Assembly: GCA_017525245.1 (NCBI GenBank)
Contig: JAFXTE010000088.1
Span: forward strand, 1 to 47,472
Length of the DNA: 47,472 bases
Direction: 5' to 3'
DNA from: Bacteroidales bacterium
GTDB taxonomy: Bacteria > Bacteroidota > Bacteroidia > Bacteroidales > WCHB1-69
The translations under genes were made by a program, and so were the position numbers. The notes below the pieces were generated by a model that saw only the letters and a list, made by a program, of their open reading frames with translations, did not search any database and was not told where the DNA came from. The first letter of the stretch is position 1, and every line of letters starts with the position of its first letter. This document shows positions 18,983 through 44,527 of the stretch, piece by piece.

Positions 18983-19040
18983 CTAAATTTTTCAATGCGA
19001 AATTGAAAAAATTTGCGGGAAATTGCGACGTGGTTCAAAG

Positions 19041-19181
19041 GTTGCTCTCTCGCAAGAGCAAGCGGCAACGAACAGCAAATGCACCATTCCGTTTGGCCTC
19101 CATCAACTAACGGAAACAACACGCTGTTTCCGAAACCCACTTCGCCAACGGAAAAGCGAGGCCTTGCCCGGCCAAACGGAA
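19041..19181. other. Structured non-coding interval (nested inverted repeats)
   Basis: The 400-bp gap between mmdA and the Abi gene has no convincing gene. It holds nested inverted repeats: GTTGC/GCAAC (19041-19045 / 19065-19069), 12-bp perfect arms TTCCGTTTGGCC/GGCCAAACGGAA (19087-19098 / 19170-19181), and inside these an 8-bp hairpin CGGAAACA/TGTTTCCG (19111-19118 / 19125-19132). The open frames across it look like chance. It could be a small RNA or a palindromic element. Confidence 0.55.
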
Positions 19182-19243
19182 ACTGGGACTCGCAAGGGAA
19201 GGAGGGATACGCCATTCCTCGCAAACCGCAAACCGTAAATCGC

Positions 19244-19327
19244 AAAAAGGGCGCAGCCCCGCTTGGCCACGCCCTTCTAACGTCTTACGTCTTACGTCTT
19301 ACGTCTGGATTTAGTCGCGGAGACAGC
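19244..19327 (-). repeat. Left direct repeat of the Abi cassette, including Abi terminator
   Basis: 84 bp that align with 20372-20457 (roughly 80% by eye). On the minus strand it consists of the last codons and stop of abi, CGTAAGA-type heptamers, and a GGGCG/CGCCC hairpin (19274-19270 / 19253-19249) followed by TTTTT (19248-19244), which serves as the intrinsic terminator. Confidence 0.75.
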
Positions 19328-20225
19328 ACCATAGCGGTTCTTCTTCCCATCTGTGCGGAAATCCCATGGCGGCGAGGTCAACATTGGGATAATCTGACAA
19401 AAGGGATTTGATTTTCTGCACCATGTCATTGTCTGGAGATATTATATTGATGAAATACTTGATGATACAAAGGTTAAAGTAAATCCGTAGAGGATCGGTG
19501 TCACTGCTTATCCAAGGGTTAGATAAACGATTAGGCAATGTTGGTCGAATTGAATTGCGCTTGTTCCAAACACGCGCATGGTGACAGCAAGCGTTGCGAG
19601 TCAGAGTCACTATCGTAATCCAAGATTCAAAAGGAGAAACTTGAAGTCCAAATCTTTGAGCCACGCATTTCTTCAATCGCATATTTGTTATGTTGCTGTA
19701 GATGCTTGTGAGCACTCCGAAAGGAAGTATTTCAGAGAGTATCCATGCGGGTGGGTGTTTTTCATTATATTTCTGTTTAAAATGCGTCATAAACTCTTCT
19801 CGAGAATGGCTGACCTCTGAGTCTATTAGGGCTAATGTGTGATTAAATTTTGTGATATCTTTGAAATTCGTTTGATCTGTCATCCAAAAGGGATTGTTTG
19901 TAAATTTACATCCTGTTTCAACAATAGCACTGCGCACAGCGATTTCGATTTTTTCGATTTCGTTGAAAATTAAAATGCGCAACTTTTTGTCAAAACGGTA
20001 CAACATCAGCACTTGGTCAAATGATGTGCCCGCTTTGTAACGATGATCTGTCTTTGGCTTTAGCAGTAATGGATACATGTATGCAGACAACCGGTAATAG
20101 CCAATGTTTTCAATATATTTGGCTGCCATTTCAGGGTTTGAAATTAATAAACCTCTTGATTTTAAGAGATTTACAAGTTCCGAGGATGTCTTGAAAGATT
20201 TTCCGTAAGGTGTTTTCGTTTCCAT
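19311..20225 (-). CDS. Abi-family (AbiD/AbiF-like, Abi_2) HEPN protein, phage defence
   Basis: A 304-residue protein of the Abi_2 family. The start at 20225 (METKTPYGKSFK) is chosen because the longer frame would begin inside the upstream RNA terminator. Visible family features: LLKSRGLLISNPEMAAKYIENIGYYRLSAYMYPLL (residues 20-54, typical N-terminus), LYRFDKKLRILIFNEIEKIEIAVRS (75-99), ILSEILPFGVLTSIYSNI (162-179), and the HEPN RNase-like motif R210-N-x3-H215 in TLTRNACCHHARVWN. Such proteins act as abortive-infection toxins that probably cut RNA. Just upstream is a short RNA with its own promoter and terminator, as described for AbiF-type loci. The last residues (CCLRD-stop) match the end of the FISUMP gene (RCLRD-stop), suggesting a recombined 3' end. 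AT-rich compared with neighbours. Confidence 0.88.
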   Translation of the reverse strand: METKTPYGKSFKTSSELVNLLKSRGLLISNPEMAAKYIENIGYYRLSAYMYPLLLKPKTDHRYKAGTSFDQVLMLYRFDKKLRILIFNEIEKIEIAVRSAIVETGCKFTNNPFWMTDQTNFKDITKFNHTLALIDSEVSHSREEFMTHFKQKYNEKHPPAWILSEILPFGVLTSIYSNITNMRLKKCVAQRFGLQVSPFESWITIVTLTRNACCHHARVWNKRNSIRPTLPNRLSNPWISSDTDPLRIYFNLCIIKYFINIISPDNDMVQKIKSLLSDYPNVDLAAMGFPHRWEEEPLWCCLRD

Positions 20226-20247
20226 AATATAAACATTGTTTTCAACT

Positions 20248-20299
20248 AAAAAAAACGACCCGCACATTTGAGCATCGTAGAGAGGCTTGGCGGGTTCTA
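20248..20299 (-). ncRNA. Short RNA upstream of the Abi gene (candidate AbiF-type RNA antitoxin/guide)
   Basis: Minus strand. A TATTTTTG element (20313-20306) predicts transcription from about 20300. The RNA has ACCCGC (20295-20290) pairing perfectly with GCGGGT (20263-20258) around a loop of about 26 nt, then CG and eight U (20255-20248), an intrinsic terminator. The abi start codon follows 22 nt later, so Abi would be made only by read-through. Structured RNAs in front of abiF-like genes have been reported and proposed to restrain or direct the HEPN protein (recalled, not checked here). The loop may hold the functional sequence. Confidence 0.7.
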
Positions 20300-20305
20300 G
20301 GACTG

Positions 20306-20313
20306 CAAAAATA
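20306..20313 (-). promoter_or_regulatory. -7 element TATTTTTG for Abi RNA and abi
   Basis: Exact TAnnTTTG on the minus strand, about 10 bp before the first paired base of the short RNA and 80 bp before the abi start codon. Confidence 0.7.
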
Positions 20314-20370
20314 CATTTTTTTTAATATCAAAACACTGACCGGTAATTTTTTATTCTTCATTCAACAATG

Positions 20371-20402
20371 AAAAAAGGGCGCAGCCCGATGCGGCCACGC
20401 CC
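20371..20402 (-). terminator. Terminator repeat after the FISUMP gene (copy 3 of 3)
   Basis: Minus strand GGGCG (20402-20398) / CGCCC (20381-20377) with an inner GCC/GGC pairing, then six T. It is nearly the same sequence as the Abi terminator and belongs to the right direct repeat (20372-20457). Confidence 0.75.
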
Positions 20403-20457
20403 TAATCTCAAGTCTCACGTCTCACGTCCTACGTCTGATTTTAATCGCGGAGGCAGC
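20372..20457. repeat. Right direct repeat of the Abi cassette
   Basis: 86 bp matching 19244-19327 in the same orientation: terminator hairpin, CGTCTCA-type heptamers (20405-20436), and the last codons of the FISUMP gene. The interval between the two repeats is exactly the Abi RNA plus abi. Confidence 0.75.
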
Positions 20458-23400
20458 GGACGGAAAAATAGTGATTGTAATAGACGAGTATGTTAGTATA
20501 GCCAGCATTATTGTAATGTGATGATTGAGCGAGGGTGTGTTGATTTCGAGTGATAGTACCACTGCTGTTTGTTATTGAGCATACCCATGCATACCCTGAC
20601 GTTCCAGGAGTAGAACTCCAAAAAATGGTGTAGTCCCCAGAACCAGAATATGAGTATTCGTTTCCAAGTTGGCTGCCTGACGTACTACGTATACCCGTAG
20701 GCAATGCACTGAATCCTGTAGCGTTGTTAGTATTAGGATTAAGTCCTGGTACACAAGTGCCAGTGGCACTATTCCAACCATTGGTGGAAGCCAAAGCTTT
20801 GGCAATATACGAAGTGTTGTTAGAACAGAGGTATTGGCTTTGATTGCTCACATACTGGATCAGATCTGTCCATTCACCATTACTTGGAACATGCCATCCT
20901 GTTGGGCAAATACCTCTATAACTAGGACTGCCATTGGATGCTCTCACCGCACTACTCCACGTATAGAGATAACCGTAAGATTGTGAATTACCTGGATTAG
21001 CATAACCGTATATGCTTGAACCGTCTGAATAATGCTTGGATCTCATGTTCTCTTTCATCCAGCACTGGTCGCCAATCTGTACGGTGTTGTAAACATTATT
21101 GTCAAAATCTTTTACAGTGGGTGCGCCTGGACAGGGCGAACCGTCCGATGTCACTGAAGGGGTGGATGTTGTAAACGTCTTGAGCTCTCCGTAACCGGTT
21201 CCAGTGCCGTTGGTAGCGTATGCCCGCACATAATAGGTAGTGCCGCTTGAGAGGCCTGTCAGATTGCTAGTGAAGCTGCCCGTACCATTGCTATCAGTGG
21301 TGTGGCTTCCGGCAGGTGTTGGATTAGTTGAGGTGCTCCAGCACACGCCACGGGCAGTCACTGCGGAACCTCCTTCGGAGGTGATGTTGCCGCCGCAGGT
21401 CGCGGAATTTTCCGTGATGTTGGAGACATTGTTGGTAGTCACCGATGGAACAGCCGTTGTGGTATTTCCGTCACGCAAACATCGAACTGAAAGACTATTA
21501 TATGCAGTTCTATCTGTTGTACTATAACAATTTGTACTGTGATAACTCAACTCGATATAATTTGGATGACCACTGGAAGTGTCAGTACTAGTCCAAAAAT
21601 ATGAACTTGCGCCAAAGCCATAGCTTGAGCCATCACCTCCAGCGGGTAATATTCCAAGACTTGTACGATTATTAGTCGCTTGATTGTTCCCTACCGAGCA
21701 TGTATTCGAAGATAAAAACCAACCCATACTGAAAGCCAATGCTTTGGCGATATTCATACCATTACAGCAATTTTCACTTTGGCTGCCCACATTATCAACA
21801 AGTTGTGTCCATTCCGCATTGCTTGGCACATGCCATCCATTGGGACAGACACCTTGCACTCCACTCGGATTGGAATTACTAGCGGTGGCATTACCCATCA
21901 CCGTATTCCAGTTGTATAAGAGTCCATAAGATTGCTTATATGAACTGTCATTCGATGGATAGTCGCCATCATAAAAAGCCGTGCCATCGGCATAATGCGT
22001 GACACGCAAATTCTCCCTCATCCAGCACTGGTTGCCAACAAGAACCGTATTATAAGTATTGCCGTCAACATCAGTAACAACAGGCGTTCCTACACATGAT
22101 TTTTCGTCCCCGTTAGAATTAATCGAAGTAGTGAAACTCACTTCATTACCATAGACTGTTCCATATTGGTTCGTGACGTATGCTCGGACAAAATAGGTGA
22201 GGTTGGATGCAAGTTCCGTGATGTTGGCGGTAAAACTGCTGATGTCGCCACCAACATTGGTGTAATTGTCTGTTTTGGTCGGATTATGGGTTAAACTCCA
22301 GCACACACCCTTTTCAATCACTTCAACAACTCCATCTGAGGCGACACTGCCACCACAAACTGCAGAATTGGTTGATATATTGGACACGTTACTCGTCATA
22401 ACAGATAGACTTTGTTGGGCCGTTTCGTCATCGCGAACACATCGGATTGAAAAACGGTTTTGCTTTCCATAGAGTCCATTAAACGACACTGTAGCACTAT
22501 TGTTCCCCAGGGAGCATCCCCACGCTGTCTCATTTGAAGATTCGGTCGCAGTCCAAAATATAGCATGGGATCCTGGATGATAACCGTTGAAACCAGCCGG
22601 CTTAGCATCAAAACCTGTTTTATTGTTATTGTCTATCGTGTTCCCAACAGCGCAATTGTTAGGACTGTCTTCCCAATCACTTGTAGAAGCCAAAGCTTTG
22701 GCTATGTTATTGGTGTCTGAGCCACACACATATTCGTATTGAGTGCCAATATAATACAACAATTGAATCCATTCTGATTTACTTGGCACATGCCATCCGT
22801 TTGGACAGATGCCCTGTACACCGCTCGGTGTGGCATCACTGGATGATTGTCCGCGCATAACTGCAGGCCAGTTGTACAGCAAACCATAAGTGGATTTATA
22901 AGAAGAATCATAGCCTGGGTAGTACCAGGATCCTGCGTTGAACGAAGAAGCGTTTTCAGGTGTTATATTCTCGCCGTCCGCATATTTCGTTGTCCTCAAA
23001 TTCTCCCGCAACCAGCACTGTCCGCCAATCATCACCGTGTTATAAATATTACCATCAATGTCGGTGGCGAGTGGTGTGTTCGGACAAGAAAGGGAATCGC
23101 CATTGGGATTGACCACCGTTGAGAAGGAGACCTCATTACCATAAACTGTGCCGTATTGGTTGGTGGCGTATGCCTTCACATAGTAGGTGGTGCCGTTTGT
23201 GAGACCTGTAATGTTACTGCTGAAACTGCCCGTGCCGCTACCGTCGGTGGTGTGGTCGTCCGCGAGAGTCGGGTTGTGAGAAGAGCTCCAGCACACACCA
23301 CGGGCAGTCACTGCGGAACCGCCTTCGGAGGTGACGTTGCCGCCGCAGGTTGCGGAGGTGGAGGAAAGAACCGTCACCGAATCAGTGGTTACGGTGGGAA

Positions 23401-37982: not shown

Positions 37983-38369
37983 ATGAAAGAATTAACCAAA
38001 GCAGAAGAACAGGTGATGCAGGTGCTGTGGCAGATCAAACAGGGATTCGCCGCCGACATCATCGCCAATTTCCCGGAACCGAAGCCGGCCTACAACACCA
38101 TGCTTACCGTGGTGCGCATTCTCGAAAAGAAGGGGTTCGTGTCGCACGAGACCTTCGGGAAGTCGAACCGCTACTACCCGTTGGTAAGCAAAGAACAGTA
38201 CTCGGAGTCGTTCATGCAGCAGTTCGTGCGCAACTACTTCGACAACTCCTTCAAGTCGATGGTCTCTTTTTTCGCTAACAACCAGGATATTACGTTGGAA
38301 GAGCTGGACGACATCCGTCGCATGATCGATGCCGTTCCGCAAGATGATTCACCCACAAAAACCGAATAG
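37983..38369 (+). CDS. BlaI/MecI-family transcriptional repressor, copy 1
   Basis: A 128-residue BlaI/MecI/CopY-type repressor. The winged helix (residues 1-70) has LTKAEEQVMQVLWQIKQGFA, YNTMLTVVRILEKKGFVSHE and YYPLVSKEQYSESF; the C-terminal helices (SFKSMVSFFANNQ..LEELDDIRRMI) form the dimer domain. In the bla/mec systems the repressor is cut after the membrane metalloprotease senses a signal. The copy at 42483-42869 differs at only two residues by eye. It is followed after 2 bp by its M56 partner. Probable autorepression through the dyad at 37739-37762. Confidence 0.93.
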   Translation: MKELTKAEEQVMQVLWQIKQGFAADIIANFPEPKPAYNTMLTVVRILEKKGFVSHETFGKSNRYYPLVSKEQYSESFMQQFVRNYFDNSFKSMVSFFANNQDITLEELDDIRRMIDAVPQDDSPTKTE

Positions 38370-38371
38370 TC

Positions 38372-40015
38372 ATGAAAACGATCCTTTTCTCTGCCATCGC
38401 CATGGCACTCTTTTTCGGTTTCTATTGGCTGACATTGCGCCGGAGTAACTTGTTCCGCTTGCGCCGGTTCTACCTTGTGGGCACATTGGCGCTTGCGTTG
38501 GTGCTGCCGTTTGTCTCCATCGAGATGCCGAGCCGCGTGGCTGCCCTTGTTCAATCAACGACAACTGGGACAACTTTGACAACAGGGGCGGGTCAAATAA
38601 CGACAACTGTGACAACTCTGACAACAGGGGCGGGTCAATTAATGACAACTGGGACAACTTTGACAACAGGGAAGGTTGAATCAACGACAACTGGGACGAC
38701 TTTGACAACAGGGGCGACAAAAAAGTTGGCTTTTAAAGATATGGTATGTTATGGGTATGTTCTTGGTTGCGGGGTGGCCTTTATTCTGCTGGTTGTCAAG
38801 CTTTTTAAGACTTTTAGGTACTATCGACGCAGTGAGTTGTCGGATGAGCTTTCGACGGGCGACATGTGCGTGCGGGTGTTAGGCGAACCCGACGGCAACC
38901 TTCCGTTCTCGTTCCTGCGTTCGGTGTTCGTGAATCCGGAAGTGTTCACAGATAGAGAGTTGCAGCAGGTGTTGCGTCACGAGCGGACGCACATCCGCCA
39001 GCGTCACACGTGGGATCTGCTCTTCACGGAGGCGGTGCGGGTGATGCAATGGTTCAATCCGTTCATTTACTTGTACACCAGGGAGTTGAGCAGCGTCCAT
39101 GAGTATTTGGCCGATGAGGCGGTGCTTTCGTGCGGAACCTCGCGCCGCGATTATCTGGAACTGCTGTACAAGCAGTTGTGTGTGGGCAAGTTCGTGCCCG
39201 TGGGCAACAGTTTCCGTCATTTGCTGACCAAGAAACGCATTCTGATGATGAGCCAGCCCGTGAAACGCAGAATGTCGGCGTGGTGGCTGCTTGCGCTCGT
39301 CCCCATCATCGCCGGACTCTTGTTGGTGAACTGCCATCCGAAAACGGAGGAAGCAGCCGGTGAATTGGTGGGAGAGGAAGTTGTCGAAGAGCCGGAAGAT
39401 CCGATAGTCTATGACCCGTTTCTCGAAAGTCCCGACGAGATGCCGGAATTTCCAGGCGGCATCCAGCAGTATGTCGATAACCTCTACGGTAGCATGAAGT
39501 ACCCCGAATTGGCTGAAAAATACAAGCTGCAGGGCATATTCACAGTCCGCTTCATTGTGGAGAAAGACGGGCGGATACGTCACGTGGAGTTGGACACGGC
39601 ATACGTCAACTGGAAGTCCAAAGAGGGAGGTATGGTGGCCATGTTAGGCAAAAACGGTTATGCGCTTGCGCATCTTGATCTCGGCGAGGGCACATCTATG
39701 GATGAGGAATCGCGGAATGAGATTGTACGGCATTTGTATGAGTCGCTTACAGCGGAGTTCAACCGTGCCTTCCGTGCCGCACCCGCCTGCAAGCCCGCCA
39801 TGAAGGACGGACAGCCGGTGCGCTGCAGGTTACGGCTGCCGGCAGCCTTCACCGCTGGCGAAAACCCCACGGCCAAAGTCACCGTAACGGATCCACGCTC
39901 TTCCCGGGCTGTCACTGATGTTGAACTTGTCCAATCCGACGGCCAGACCGGTCCCCGCTTCCTGCGTGTTCTGATCGACACCTTCCCCTGTGAAACATCC
40001 GTGGTGCAGTACTGA
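38372..40015 (+). CDS. M56 (BlaR1-like) metallopeptidase with TonB C-terminal domain, copy 1
   Basis: A 547-residue membrane protein. Order: TM1 (residues 5-20), TM2 (34-50), a Thr-rich periplasmic or cytoplasmic insert of four 14-residue repeats (STTTGTTLTTGAGQ type, about 61-116), TM3 (about 124-142), and the M56 peptidase core with RHERTHIRQRHTWD (HExxH) and VHEYLADEAVL. A fourth membrane segment follows (WWLLALVPIIAGLLLVNC), then a periplasmic part with a TonB C-terminal domain (PEFPGGIQQYVDNLYGSMKY, FTVRFIVEKDGRIRHVEL). It senses an envelope signal and cleaves the BlaI partner. The TonB-like domain is an addition common in Bacteroidetes M56 proteins. Confidence 0.9.
   Translation: MKTILFSAIAMALFFGFYWLTLRRSNLFRLRRFYLVGTLALALVLPFVSIEMPSRVAALVQSTTTGTTLTTGAGQITTTVTTLTTGAGQLMTTGTTLTTGKVESTTTGTTLTTGATKKLAFKDMVCYGYVLGCGVAFILLVVKLFKTFRYYRRSELSDELSTGDMCVRVLGEPDGNLPFSFLRSVFVNPEVFTDRELQQVLRHERTHIRQRHTWDLLFTEAVRVMQWFNPFIYLYTRELSSVHEYLADEAVLSCGTSRRDYLELLYKQLCVGKFVPVGNSFRHLLTKKRILMMSQPVKRRMSAWWLLALVPIIAGLLLVNCHPKTEEAAGELVGEEVVEEPEDPIVYDPFLESPDEMPEFPGGIQQYVDNLYGSMKYPELAEKYKLQGIFTVRFIVEKDGRIRHVELDTAYVNWKSKEGGMVAMLGKNGYALAHLDLGEGTSMDEESRNEIVRHLYESLTAEFNRAFRAAPACKPAMKDGQPVRCRLRLPAAFTAGENPTAKVTVTDPRSSRAVTDVELVQSDGQTGPRFLRVLIDTFPCETSVVQY
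38554..38721 (+). repeat. Four 42-bp intragenic repeats (Thr-rich), copy 1
   Basis: Units of the type ACGACAACTGGGACAACTTT with an inner 9-bp ACAAC period encode the STTTGTTLTTGA-type segment. Units differ between this gene and its paralogue at 43054-43221. Confidence 0.85.
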
Positions 40016-42482: not shown

Positions 42483-42869
42483 ATGAAAGAATTAACCAAA
42501 GCAGAAGAACAGGTGATGCAGGTGCTGTGGCAGATCAAACAGGGATTCGCCGCCGACATCATCGACAATTTCCCGGAGCCGAAGCCGGCCTATAACACCA
42601 TGCTGACCGTGGTGCGCATTCTCGAAAAGAAGGGGTTCGTGTCGCACGAGACCTTCGGGAAGTCGAACCGCTACTACCCGCTGGTGAGCAAGGAACAGTA
42701 CTCGGAGTCGTTCATGCAGCAATTCGTGCGCAACTACTTCGACAACTCCTTCAAGTCGATGGTCTCCTTTTTTGCTAACAACCAAGATATTACGTTGGAA
42801 GAGCTGGACGATATCCGTCGCATGATCGATGCCGTTCCGCAAGATGATTCACCCGCAAAAACCGAATAA
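42483..42869 (+). CDS. BlaI/MecI-family transcriptional repressor, copy 2
   Basis: A 128-residue near-identical copy of the repressor at 37983-38369 (differences seen: Ala to Asp in ADIIDNF, and Thr to Ala in DDSPAKTE). Winged-helix and dimer helices are intact. It lies 2 bp upstream of its M56 partner. Because the DNA-binding residues are the same and the operators nearly so, the two repressors should bind both promoters and form mixed dimers; this is inference from sequence identity. Confidence 0.93.
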   Translation: MKELTKAEEQVMQVLWQIKQGFAADIIDNFPEPKPAYNTMLTVVRILEKKGFVSHETFGKSNRYYPLVSKEQYSESFMQQFVRNYFDNSFKSMVSFFANNQDITLEELDDIRRMIDAVPQDDSPAKTE

Positions 42870-42871
42870 TC

Positions 42872-44527
42872 ATGAAAACGATCCTTTTCTCCGCCATCGC
42901 CATGGCACTCTTTTTCGGTTTCTATTGGCTCACGCTGCGCCGGAGCAACCTGTTCCGCTTGCGCCGGTTCTACCTCGTGGGCACGTTGGCGCTTTCGTTG
43001 GTACTGCCGTTTGTTTCGCTCGAGATGCCGAGCCGCGTGGCCGCCGTAGTTAAAACAACGACAACTGGGACAACTCTGACAACGGGAGCGGTTGAGTCAA
43101 CGACAACTGGGACAACTTTGACAACAGGAGCGGTTGAATCAACGACAACTGGGACAACGTTGACAACAAAGGCGGGTCAGTCAACGACAACTGGGACAAC
43201 GTTGACAACAGGGGCGACAAAAAAGTTGTCTTTTAAAGATATGGTATGTTATGGGTATCTTCTCGGTTGCGGGGTGGCTTTTATCCTGCTGGTTATCAAG
43301 CTCTTTAAGACTTTCAGGTACTATCGGCGCAGTGTGCTGTCGGATGAGCTTTCGACGGGCGACATGTGTGTGCGGGTGCTGGGCGAACCCGACGGCAACC
43401 TTCCGTTCTCGTTCCTGCGTTCGGTGTTCGTGAATCCGAAAGTGTTCACGGAGAGCGAGTTGCAACAGGTGTTGCGGCATGAGAGGACGCACATCCGCCA
43501 GCGGCACACGTGGGATCTGCTCTTCATGGAAGCGATGCGGGTGCTGCAATGGTTCAATCCGTTCATTTACTTGTACGCCAGGGAGTTGAGTAGCGTCCAC
43601 GAGTATTTGGCCGATGAGGCGGTGCTCTCGTGCGGATTCTCTCGCCGCGACTACTTAGAACTGCTGTACAAACAACTGTGCGTGGGCAAGTTCGTGCCAG
43701 TGGGCAACAGTTTCCGTCACTTGCTGACCAAGAAACGCATTCTGATGATGAACCAGCCGGTAAAACGCAGAGCGTCAGCGTGGTGGCTCCTCGCGCTCAT
43801 TCCCATCATCGCCGGACACTTGTTGGTGAACTGCCATCCAAAAACGGAGATAGTTGCTGAGGAAGAGGCGGTTGAGGAAGTTATCGATGAACCCGTTTGC
43901 ATGGACCCCGATACGATGCCGCAGTTCCCGGGTGGAATCCAGCAGTATGTCAATAACCTCATCGGTAGCATGAAGTATCCTGAATTGGCCAAGAAGTACA
44001 AATTGTCAGGAGTTCTTTCGGTATGTTTTATTGTGGAGAAGGATGGACGTGTTCTTTTCACGGAGTTGGATACGGCTCATGTCAAATGGGGTGATGTTTG
44101 TGGCAAGAAAGGGGAGATGGTGCTTACGGCTCCTTTCGAAGGTCGTAAGGACAGCAATGACGGTTTGGCTGTCGCTCATCTTGATCTCGGAGAGGATGCC
44201 CCCGAAGATAAAGAATCTCGGAAAGAGATTTTGCGGAAAGTGATGGATGACAATATGGCGGAAATAAATCGGGCTTTCCGTGCCGCACCCGCCTGCAAGC
44301 CAGCCATGAAGGATGGAGAACCTGTGCGTTGCAAATTGCATCTGCCGGTGGGATTCACCACGGAGGAGCATGTCGTTAACAAACTAGTAATGCTTCAAGA
44401 CATCGCCGTTTCTCCAACTGCAAAGCCGTCAAAAGATCGTTACGTTACTGGCATAGTCGCACTCGATGAGCAGCTTGGGCCTGATTTTATAGACATTCCT
44501 TGGGTCGGCTACACCTCCGCAGAATAG
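42872..44527 (+). CDS. M56 (BlaR1-like) metallopeptidase with TonB C-terminal domain, copy 2
   Basis: A 551-residue paralogue of the protein at 38372-40015, with the same order: two N-terminal membrane segments, Thr-rich repeats (four 14-residue units, STTTGTTLTTGAVE type), TM3, RHERTHIRQRHTWD (HExxH), LADEAVLSCGFSRRDY, TM4 ending LLVNC, and the TonB C-terminal domain (PQFPGGIQQYVNNLIGSMKY, LSVCFIVEKDGRVLFTEL). The first ~315 residues are almost the same as copy 1, whereas the region after TM4 differs strongly, especially the last 60 residues. This suggests that the sensor or output domain has diverged while the repressor-cleaving part was kept. It is followed by a heptamer tract and the outer-membrane barrel gene. 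Confidence 0.9.
   Translation: MKTILFSAIAMALFFGFYWLTLRRSNLFRLRRFYLVGTLALSLVLPFVSLEMPSRVAAVVKTTTTGTTLTTGAVESTTTGTTLTTGAVESTTTGTTLTTKAGQSTTTGTTLTTGATKKLSFKDMVCYGYLLGCGVAFILLVIKLFKTFRYYRRSVLSDELSTGDMCVRVLGEPDGNLPFSFLRSVFVNPKVFTESELQQVLRHERTHIRQRHTWDLLFMEAMRVLQWFNPFIYLYARELSSVHEYLADEAVLSCGFSRRDYLELLYKQLCVGKFVPVGNSFRHLLTKKRILMMNQPVKRRASAWWLLALIPIIAGHLLVNCHPKTEIVAEEEAVEEVIDEPVCMDPDTMPQFPGGIQQYVNNLIGSMKYPELAKKYKLSGVLSVCFIVEKDGRVLFTELDTAHVKWGDVCGKKGEMVLTAPFEGRKDSNDGLAVAHLDLGEDAPEDKESRKEILRKVMDDNMAEINRAFRAAPACKPAMKDGEPVRCKLHLPVGFTTEEHVVNKLVMLQDIAVSPTAKPSKDRYVTGIVALDEQLGPDFIDIPWVGYTSAE
43054..43221 (+). repeat. Four 42-bp intragenic repeats (Thr-rich), copy 2
   Basis: Same layout as 38554-38721 but with a different order of unit variants (AVE, AVE, AGQ, ATK against AGQ, AGQ, VE, ATK). 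Confidence 0.85.

Follow-up and report, generated by a model that had tools for sequence, protein, structure and literature searches.

An abiF gene preceded by an abiF RNA in a Bacteroidales bacterium, and solitary copies of the RNA in phages and viruses

Introduction

In the type III system ToxIN an RNA gene with a terminator lies before the toxin gene, a layout shared with the locus described here, although ToxN is not known to be a HEPN protein. Its RNA antitoxin inhibits the RNase toxin through direct binding, according to the accessible text of two reports (PMC8860590, PMC5772629), which is also the mode of action considered below; it differs in that ToxI is a repeated pseudoknot.

Closer systems are found in the AbiF family. 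PbAbiF, from a Prevotellaceae bacterium, was solved as a homodimer with two copies of its RNA, AbiFr (PMC12373285; PDB entry 8VZ6, PMC12737573); the work is that of Zilberzwige-Tal et al. (Cell 2025), cited here through the accessible parts of PMC12373285 and PMC12737573. The double change of R210 and H215 is described as inactivating PbAbiF (PMC12373285), and AbiFr nucleotides C32 and U38 as blocking its RNase (PMC12737573). A second system lies in the phi027 prophage of C. difficile, where the available sections of PMC12373285 describe RCd22, an RF03085 RNA that binds AbiF and neutralises it in cis and in trans; transcription of RCd22 mostly stops at a terminator before abiF, with some read-through. 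Within the accessible text of these papers, toxin activity and its neutralisation by RNA binding are reported for only PbAbiF and C. difficile AbiF (PMC12373285, PMC12737573), and anti-phage action of the latter is given as not demonstrated (PMC12373285). AbiD/F proteins and RF03085 have been tied to Cas13 ancestry, with AbiF as a proposed Cas13 ancestor (PMC12165695, PMC12737573, in part). In viruses, one cyanophage copy of the abiF RNA is in print, that of S-CREM1, in a paper whose accessible text further notes that Rfam includes three phage genomes (PMC9964418); an available excerpt of a review calls the role of the cyanophage copy unconfirmed (PMC12197685).

Here we analyse an abiF locus within a stretch of 47,472 nucleotides from a Bacteroidales bacterium of the gut (assembly GCA_017525245.1, contig JAFXTE010000088.1, positions 1 to 47,472), referred to throughout as the window, and follow its RNA into related cellular genomes and into phages.

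Results

Layout of the locus

The features of the locus are collected in Table 1. Reading the minus strand bore out the positions given in a preliminary description for the promoter-like box, the stem, the eight U and the start codon; the unit that it had put at 50 nt is 48 nt long, and the inner AGC/GCT helix and the loop pair C20280-G20276 had escaped it. The abiF ATG at 20225 stands 22 nt past the last T of the U-run. A second in-frame ATG, at 20267, falls within the RNA, and 20225 is taken as the start because it agrees with the aligned start of PbAbiF. We take the box TATTTTTG (TAnnTTTG) to be a -7 promoter box of the Bacteroidota type, and across homologous loci this pattern ends 10-11 nt 5' of the stem in 78 of 82 scorable RNA matches, where 0.014 would be expected per 30-nt stretch. 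A sigma-70 promoter scan found no promoter at the RNA, the TAnnTTTG box being of another type, and an intrinsic-terminator scan, which allows loops of at most 8 nt, did not report the RNA stem with its 26-nt loop. Elsewhere in the window, at 37983-40015 and 42483-44527, lie two neighbouring and apparently duplicated pairs of genes for a Penicillinase_R (BlaI-like) repressor and an M56 (BlaR1-like) peptidase with a TonB_C match.

Table 1. Features of the abiF locus, in window coordinates
Feature	Coordinates	Strand	Basis
Promoter-like box TATTTTTG	20306-20313	(-)	TAnnTTTG pattern, read from sequence
abiF RNA, a probable RNA antitoxin; RF03085 extended by one outer A-U pair	20258-20295	(-)	Family match, conservation, covariation
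Outer stem, 5' arm ACCCGC	20290-20295	(-)	Sequence; covariation
26-nt loop	20264-20289	(-)	Read from sequence
Outer stem, 3' arm GCGGGT	20258-20263	(-)	Sequence; covariation
Inner helix AGC/GCT, 20285-20287 with 20271-20273	20271-20287	(-)	Rfam structure line
Loop pair C20280-G20276 over three bases, enclosed by inner helix		(-)	Covariation
Eight-T run (eight U), preceded by CG	20248-20255	(-)	Sequence; with outer stem, probable intrinsic terminator
abiF (Abi_2, HEPN RNase), 304 aa, R210-N-x3-H215	19311-20225	(-)	
abiF 3' end (last codons) and terminator-like hairpin, dispersed repeat copy	19244-19327	(-)	
3' end of upstream Fib_succ_major gene and terminator, second repeat copy	20372-20457	(-)	

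The RNA: family, conservation and covariation

That the Abi gene is preceded by a dedicated structured RNA, as first proposed from the letters of the sequence, is confirmed by a full-length match to Rfam RF03085 (abiF RNA), obtained in the covariance-model search that had been suggested as a check (56.1 bits, where the gathering score is 37; positions 1-37 of 37; E 6.7e-8 in the window). This is the sole RF03085 match in the window, and tandem antitoxin repeats of the classical type III (ToxIN-like) kind were not found there. Folding energy was only moderately better than that of shuffles (z -2.15, with 7 of 200 shuffles equally good); this is too weak and was rejected as proof of an RNA, and it is because of the family match, not the folding energy, that the RNA is held to be more than chance.

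Conservation was assessed over 84 rows, being 83 matches from homologous loci plus the window. Across 38 nt 48 of these rows are identical and the window variant occurs in 7; most of the remainder differ by a few bases, and five, including three with a 30-nt insert, are longer. The 26-nt loop, which had been thought the only variable part, turned out to be the most conserved, near-invariant save for a few insert-bearing rows (83 matches in 77 of 80 loci).

The stem is also conserved and covaries, as an alignment of the regions upstream of homologues, the other check proposed, has now established. In a set of 16 distinct rows chosen from cellular loci, 93.1% of cells were paired and 7 of 10 pairs had changed on both sides, neither value being reached by any of 500 shuffles; the pair C7-column 32 fails in 9 of the 16 rows, the window included. 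A further alignment of 44 distinct phage and viral rows, fitted to the model, had 95.2% of cells paired and 53 cells changed on both sides, with none of 500 shuffles as high, while its changed-pair and pair-type counts were equalled by 12 and 21 of 500 shuffles. Within the loop, columns 16 and 20 form C-G in 8 and U-A in the other 8 cellular rows; among the 44 viral rows 25 have C-G, 19 have U-A and none departs from this, counts which kinship may inflate. This pair is absent from the Rfam structure line and would close a three-base loop. Downstream of the stem the U-run is broken in many of the homologous matches, 24 of the 83 reading CGTTTTATTTTTAT, so the terminator may be weaker there.

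The AbiF protein and its closest relative

The protein matches Abi_2 (PF07751) at 183.5 bits against a cut-off of 25.6 (E 6.5e-54), was called AbiD by PADLOC, and carries the HEPN motif R-N-x3-H as RNACCH at R210-H215, in keeping with the signature first noted. The pattern T-R/K-N-x3-H was extracted in 70 of 80 homologues; it missed the other 10, which may still have it. At E up to 0.001 the only PDB-sequence match is 8VZ6 (E 1.2e-135). A 68-residue stretch of the 8VZ6 chain is encoded without any difference at one homologous locus, L046; the protein of this locus is identical to window AbiF at 190 of 299 positions (64%), and the RNA there differs from that of the window by one base in 38, a loop base (A to U). 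PbAbiF and window AbiF also share the R210/H215 numbering and the RNA-gene layout, whereas window AbiF has five extra C-terminal residues that come from a local repeat. It had been suggested that the Bacteroidales version might be undescribed. Because PbAbiF, from a Prevotellaceae bacterium, is 64% identical and the L046 RNA is one base different, the version is, judged by sequence, already described, and the window holds a near relative of PbAbiF, whose structure is solved.

The C. difficile system shares with the window an RF03085 RNA before an Abi_2 gene, the HEPN motif and a terminator with read-through, which for the window is predicted (PMC12373285, accessible text). It differs in having two motifs, an RNA of ~100-130 nt and a place in a prophage lysis module (PMC12373285), compared with one motif in a 48-nt unit between a Fib_succ_major gene and a carboxylase gene in the window.

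Homologous cellular loci

A scan of genome contigs gave 272 relatives, of which the best 80 were kept, and RF03085 was found in 77 of these (83 matches). Among the three misses, L068 starts inside the RNA at a contig end, and L043 and L059 carry a loop insert of ~75 nt. The insert (L043 ~2893-2969, L059 ~940-1016) is common to the two, which come from different assemblies, is partly palindromic and looks like a small mobile repeat; its core was in no other locus among 87 examined. The 30-nt loop insert was seen in L022 (2917-2983), L030 (2917-2983) and L034 (2918-2984), each with an abi gene downstream, and that of L022, the only one tested, folds as two small hairpins. Six loci have a second abiF RNA 5' of the gene-adjacent one (L013:230-266, L016:2809-2845, L031:2810-2846, L037:2693-2729, L054:2802-2838, L061:1646-1682). 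The second RNA has a stem mismatch in L013, L016 and L031, is followed in L037 by sequence that could be the beginning of an abi gene since lost, and in L061 lies >1 kb from the gene-adjacent copy.

The genome of origin, a draft of 111 contigs, has one AbiF match and one RF03085 match. With this genome counted in both samples, RF03085 at E up to 0.001 was present in 6 of 395 sampled genomes of the phylum (5 above cut-off) and in 21 of 393 of the order (18 above cut-off). Compared by hand, 18 of 26 cellular sites found by starting from the RNA adjoin an Abi_2 match; 13 of the 26 carry the exact pattern CCAAGCCTCTNNACRATGCTCAAAT, 10 with a full abiF downstream and 3 with a remnant (one only at E 7.6e-4).

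Mobility and the neighbouring repeat

An RNA-gene unit is common to the window and L007 (90% identity, 20352-19311) and to the window and L008 (97%, 20403-19067), the L008 flanks matching other parts of the window; this points to toxin gene and RNA moving together as one unit. The two repeat copies, one at the 3' end of abiF and the other at that of the upstream gene, are 81% identical, and the genome of origin contains 24 matches to the repeat, including the query's own place, 6 of which cover most of the query. Both protein ends are supplied by this repeat, the CCLRD of AbiF mirroring the RCLRD of the upstream Fib_succ_major protein. An orthologue of the carboxylase was present in all five genomes of the same genus or family. 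In three of these (L172-L174) the sequence upstream of the carboxylase matched neither abiF nor the large upstream gene at the nucleotide level; no clean empty site can be read, because the carboxylase neighbourhood differs in these three.

Solitary RNAs in phages and viruses

The exact pattern was found in 38 IMG/VR contigs. A 38-base query of the window RNA returned 73 phage records from GenBank (60 from Mycobacterium phages), some weak at the E limit of 10, and a second 38-base query returned 7. We examined 50 phage and viral records chosen for the motif, many viral ones being fragmentary: the 38 IMG/VR contigs, in which the RNA match is by construction, and 12 GenBank regions. Three of the contigs apparently duplicate GenBank phages (Acj61, Lolly9 and LittleE, with the same lengths). 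RF03085 was present in 49 of the 50 records and above cut-off in 44, Mimi and SNW-1 being below. Xanthomonas phage X1 was dropped as a carrier, having no RF03085 match and 20.4 bits with the R1 model.

An Abi_2 gene was found in just 2 of the 50 records, L101 and L125. When the 1.5 kb downstream of each locus was searched alone by tblastn, as for the cellular sites with the exact pattern, a match was obtained in 2 of the 38 viral contigs (7 of the 38 offer <1 kb) and in none of 11 GenBank phages; remnants of distantly related abiF genes could be missed here because the cellular loci used for comparison are close kin of the query. A tblastn search with window AbiF returned 75 phage records, none of them named as a Mycobacterium, Synechococcus, Acinetobacter or Arthrobacter phage. 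The loci with the RNA (L088-L125, L146-L153, L155-L157), nearly all of them without abiF, come from phages whose hosts include Mycobacterium, Arthrobacter, Synechococcus, Acinetobacter and a marine member of the Paracoccaceae.

Many viral copies lie close to tRNA genes. This was tested on 46 loci, the 50 minus the three duplicate records and X1; L098 and L101 gave no expectation, free positions being absent in both. The RNA lay <=20 nt from a tRNA gene in 15 of 46, against 4.1 expected from random positions outside ORFs and tRNAs, and <=250 nt in 22 of 46, against 13.0, with none of 2000 simulations as high in either case. All 22 are on the same strand as the nearest tRNA. The RNA of GenevaB15, Bromden, Mimi and S-SZBM1 has annotated tRNA genes on both sides, and that of Lolly9 comes just before one. 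In 21 of the 46, e.g., CRP-143, the stretch read had no tRNA within 500 nt, and tRNA proximity is a tendency. In a mechanical list, overlap with a tRNA call or with an ORF of >=100 aa was recorded for 10 of the 46. ARAGORN calls of permuted tmRNA overlap the viral abiF RNA in L088 (7831-8219) and L113 (5209-5608), which may be a boundary error.

Discussion

The families of RNA and protein, the layout, the conservation and the covariation are observed directly, and we regard it as very probable that the locus is an RNA-antitoxin/toxin module of the AbiF (AbiD/F) family. Its sequence layout is that of an RNA-antitoxin (type III-like) system, with the RNA gene, furnished with a predicted promoter and terminator, directly before the toxin gene; the single RNA motif of the window, against two in C. 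difficile, counts against the assignment. Binding, inhibition, read-through and toxicity would follow by analogy with the published relatives. A single promoter would yield a short RNA, with the outer stem and U-run probably also terminating transcription, such that most transcripts would end as free abiF RNA and a minority would read through to abiF. The RNA would bind the AbiF dimer, probably with one RNA per monomer, and would keep the HEPN RNase (R210/H215) inactive. Were the balance upset, e.g., by phage infection, free AbiF would be expected to cut single-stranded RNA and growth would stop. The preliminary description had left it open that the RNA either restrains or directs Abi; restraint agrees with the experiments in the relatives PbAbiF and RCd22/AbiF, and direction falls with the absence of a variable guide stretch. 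Its idea that terminator read-through feeds abiF is supported by experiment in the C. difficile relative (PMC12373285, accessible text).

It also should be considered that the RNA might be a cis-acting leader only, a terminator or attenuator setting the level of abiF without binding the protein. The stem and U-run do lie between the promoter box and the gene, and the C. difficile RNA is described as reducing abiF expression in cis (PMC12373285, in part). However, a mere terminator needs no invariant loop, and the loop is near-identical across homologous loci and viral matches while the stem covaries; moreover, the relatives' RNA binds protein (PMC12373285, in part), and beside most of the viral copies looked at there is no abiF whose expression could be attenuated. 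We consider this reading quite unlikely. Less likely still is that the cassette is decaying and has no function: the closing residues of AbiF, CCLRD, do come from a genomic repeat common to the upstream gene, but frame, HEPN motif, RNA, promoter box and spacing are all intact, and in most of the best 80 of 272 relatives the match is confined to residues 1-299, which places the added tail outside the shared part. Least likely of all, and rejected, is an RNA that guides AbiF to target RNAs in the manner of Cas13, for although the proposed Cas13 ancestry of AbiF would favour it (PMC12165695, PMC12737573, in part) and the link to the origin of RNA-guided HEPN effectors made in the preliminary description stands, no variable guide or spacer segment was found (48 of 84 rows identical over 38 nt), no repeat-spacer array was seen in 19000-20700, and the near-invariance of the loop in relatives argues against a guide role.

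With the RNA-antitoxin/toxin module as the favoured reading of the window, the solitary viral RNAs invite a reading of their own. In phages of unrelated hosts the solitary abiF RNA may be an antitoxin decoy, made with the phage tRNAs and silencing host AbiF as counter-defence, and we would put the chances of this at about even. It is suggested by the near-fixed loop and covarying stem in phages lacking a detected toxin gene, a pattern that would reflect selection for binding AbiF. Window AbiF would itself be among the proteins such decoys could bind, because they copy its RNA loop. There are precedents in the pseudo-ToxI of phage PhiTE (PMC3475682) and in RNA anti-CRISPRs (PMC10651486), both as far as the accessible text describes them. 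Our literature search, which rested mostly on search results and had most subscription journals, including the Cell 2025 paper, outside its scope, returned no proposal of an abiF decoy.

The host side was checked at 8 picked plasmid AbiF loci, either cyanobacterial or belonging to genera or groups close to the phage hosts, using the R1 model at E up to 1. A match preceded the AbiF gene in three (Synechocystis, Picosynechococcus and Rhodococcus opacus) and was absent in five (Arthrobacter, Mycolicibacterium, Acinetobacter johnsonii, Synechococcus elongatus and Sulfitobacter), which argues against a simple pairing of decoy and host AbiF. The RNAs of those five may be too divergent for R1, built as it is mainly on Bacteroidota rows. 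The viral RNAs may bind a ligand other than AbiF.

The module in the window is itself of modest interest, and the solitary viral RNAs could matter more. If they are decoys, AbiF-type defence would be common enough to select RNA mimics in mycobacteriophages, cyanophages and T4-like phages.
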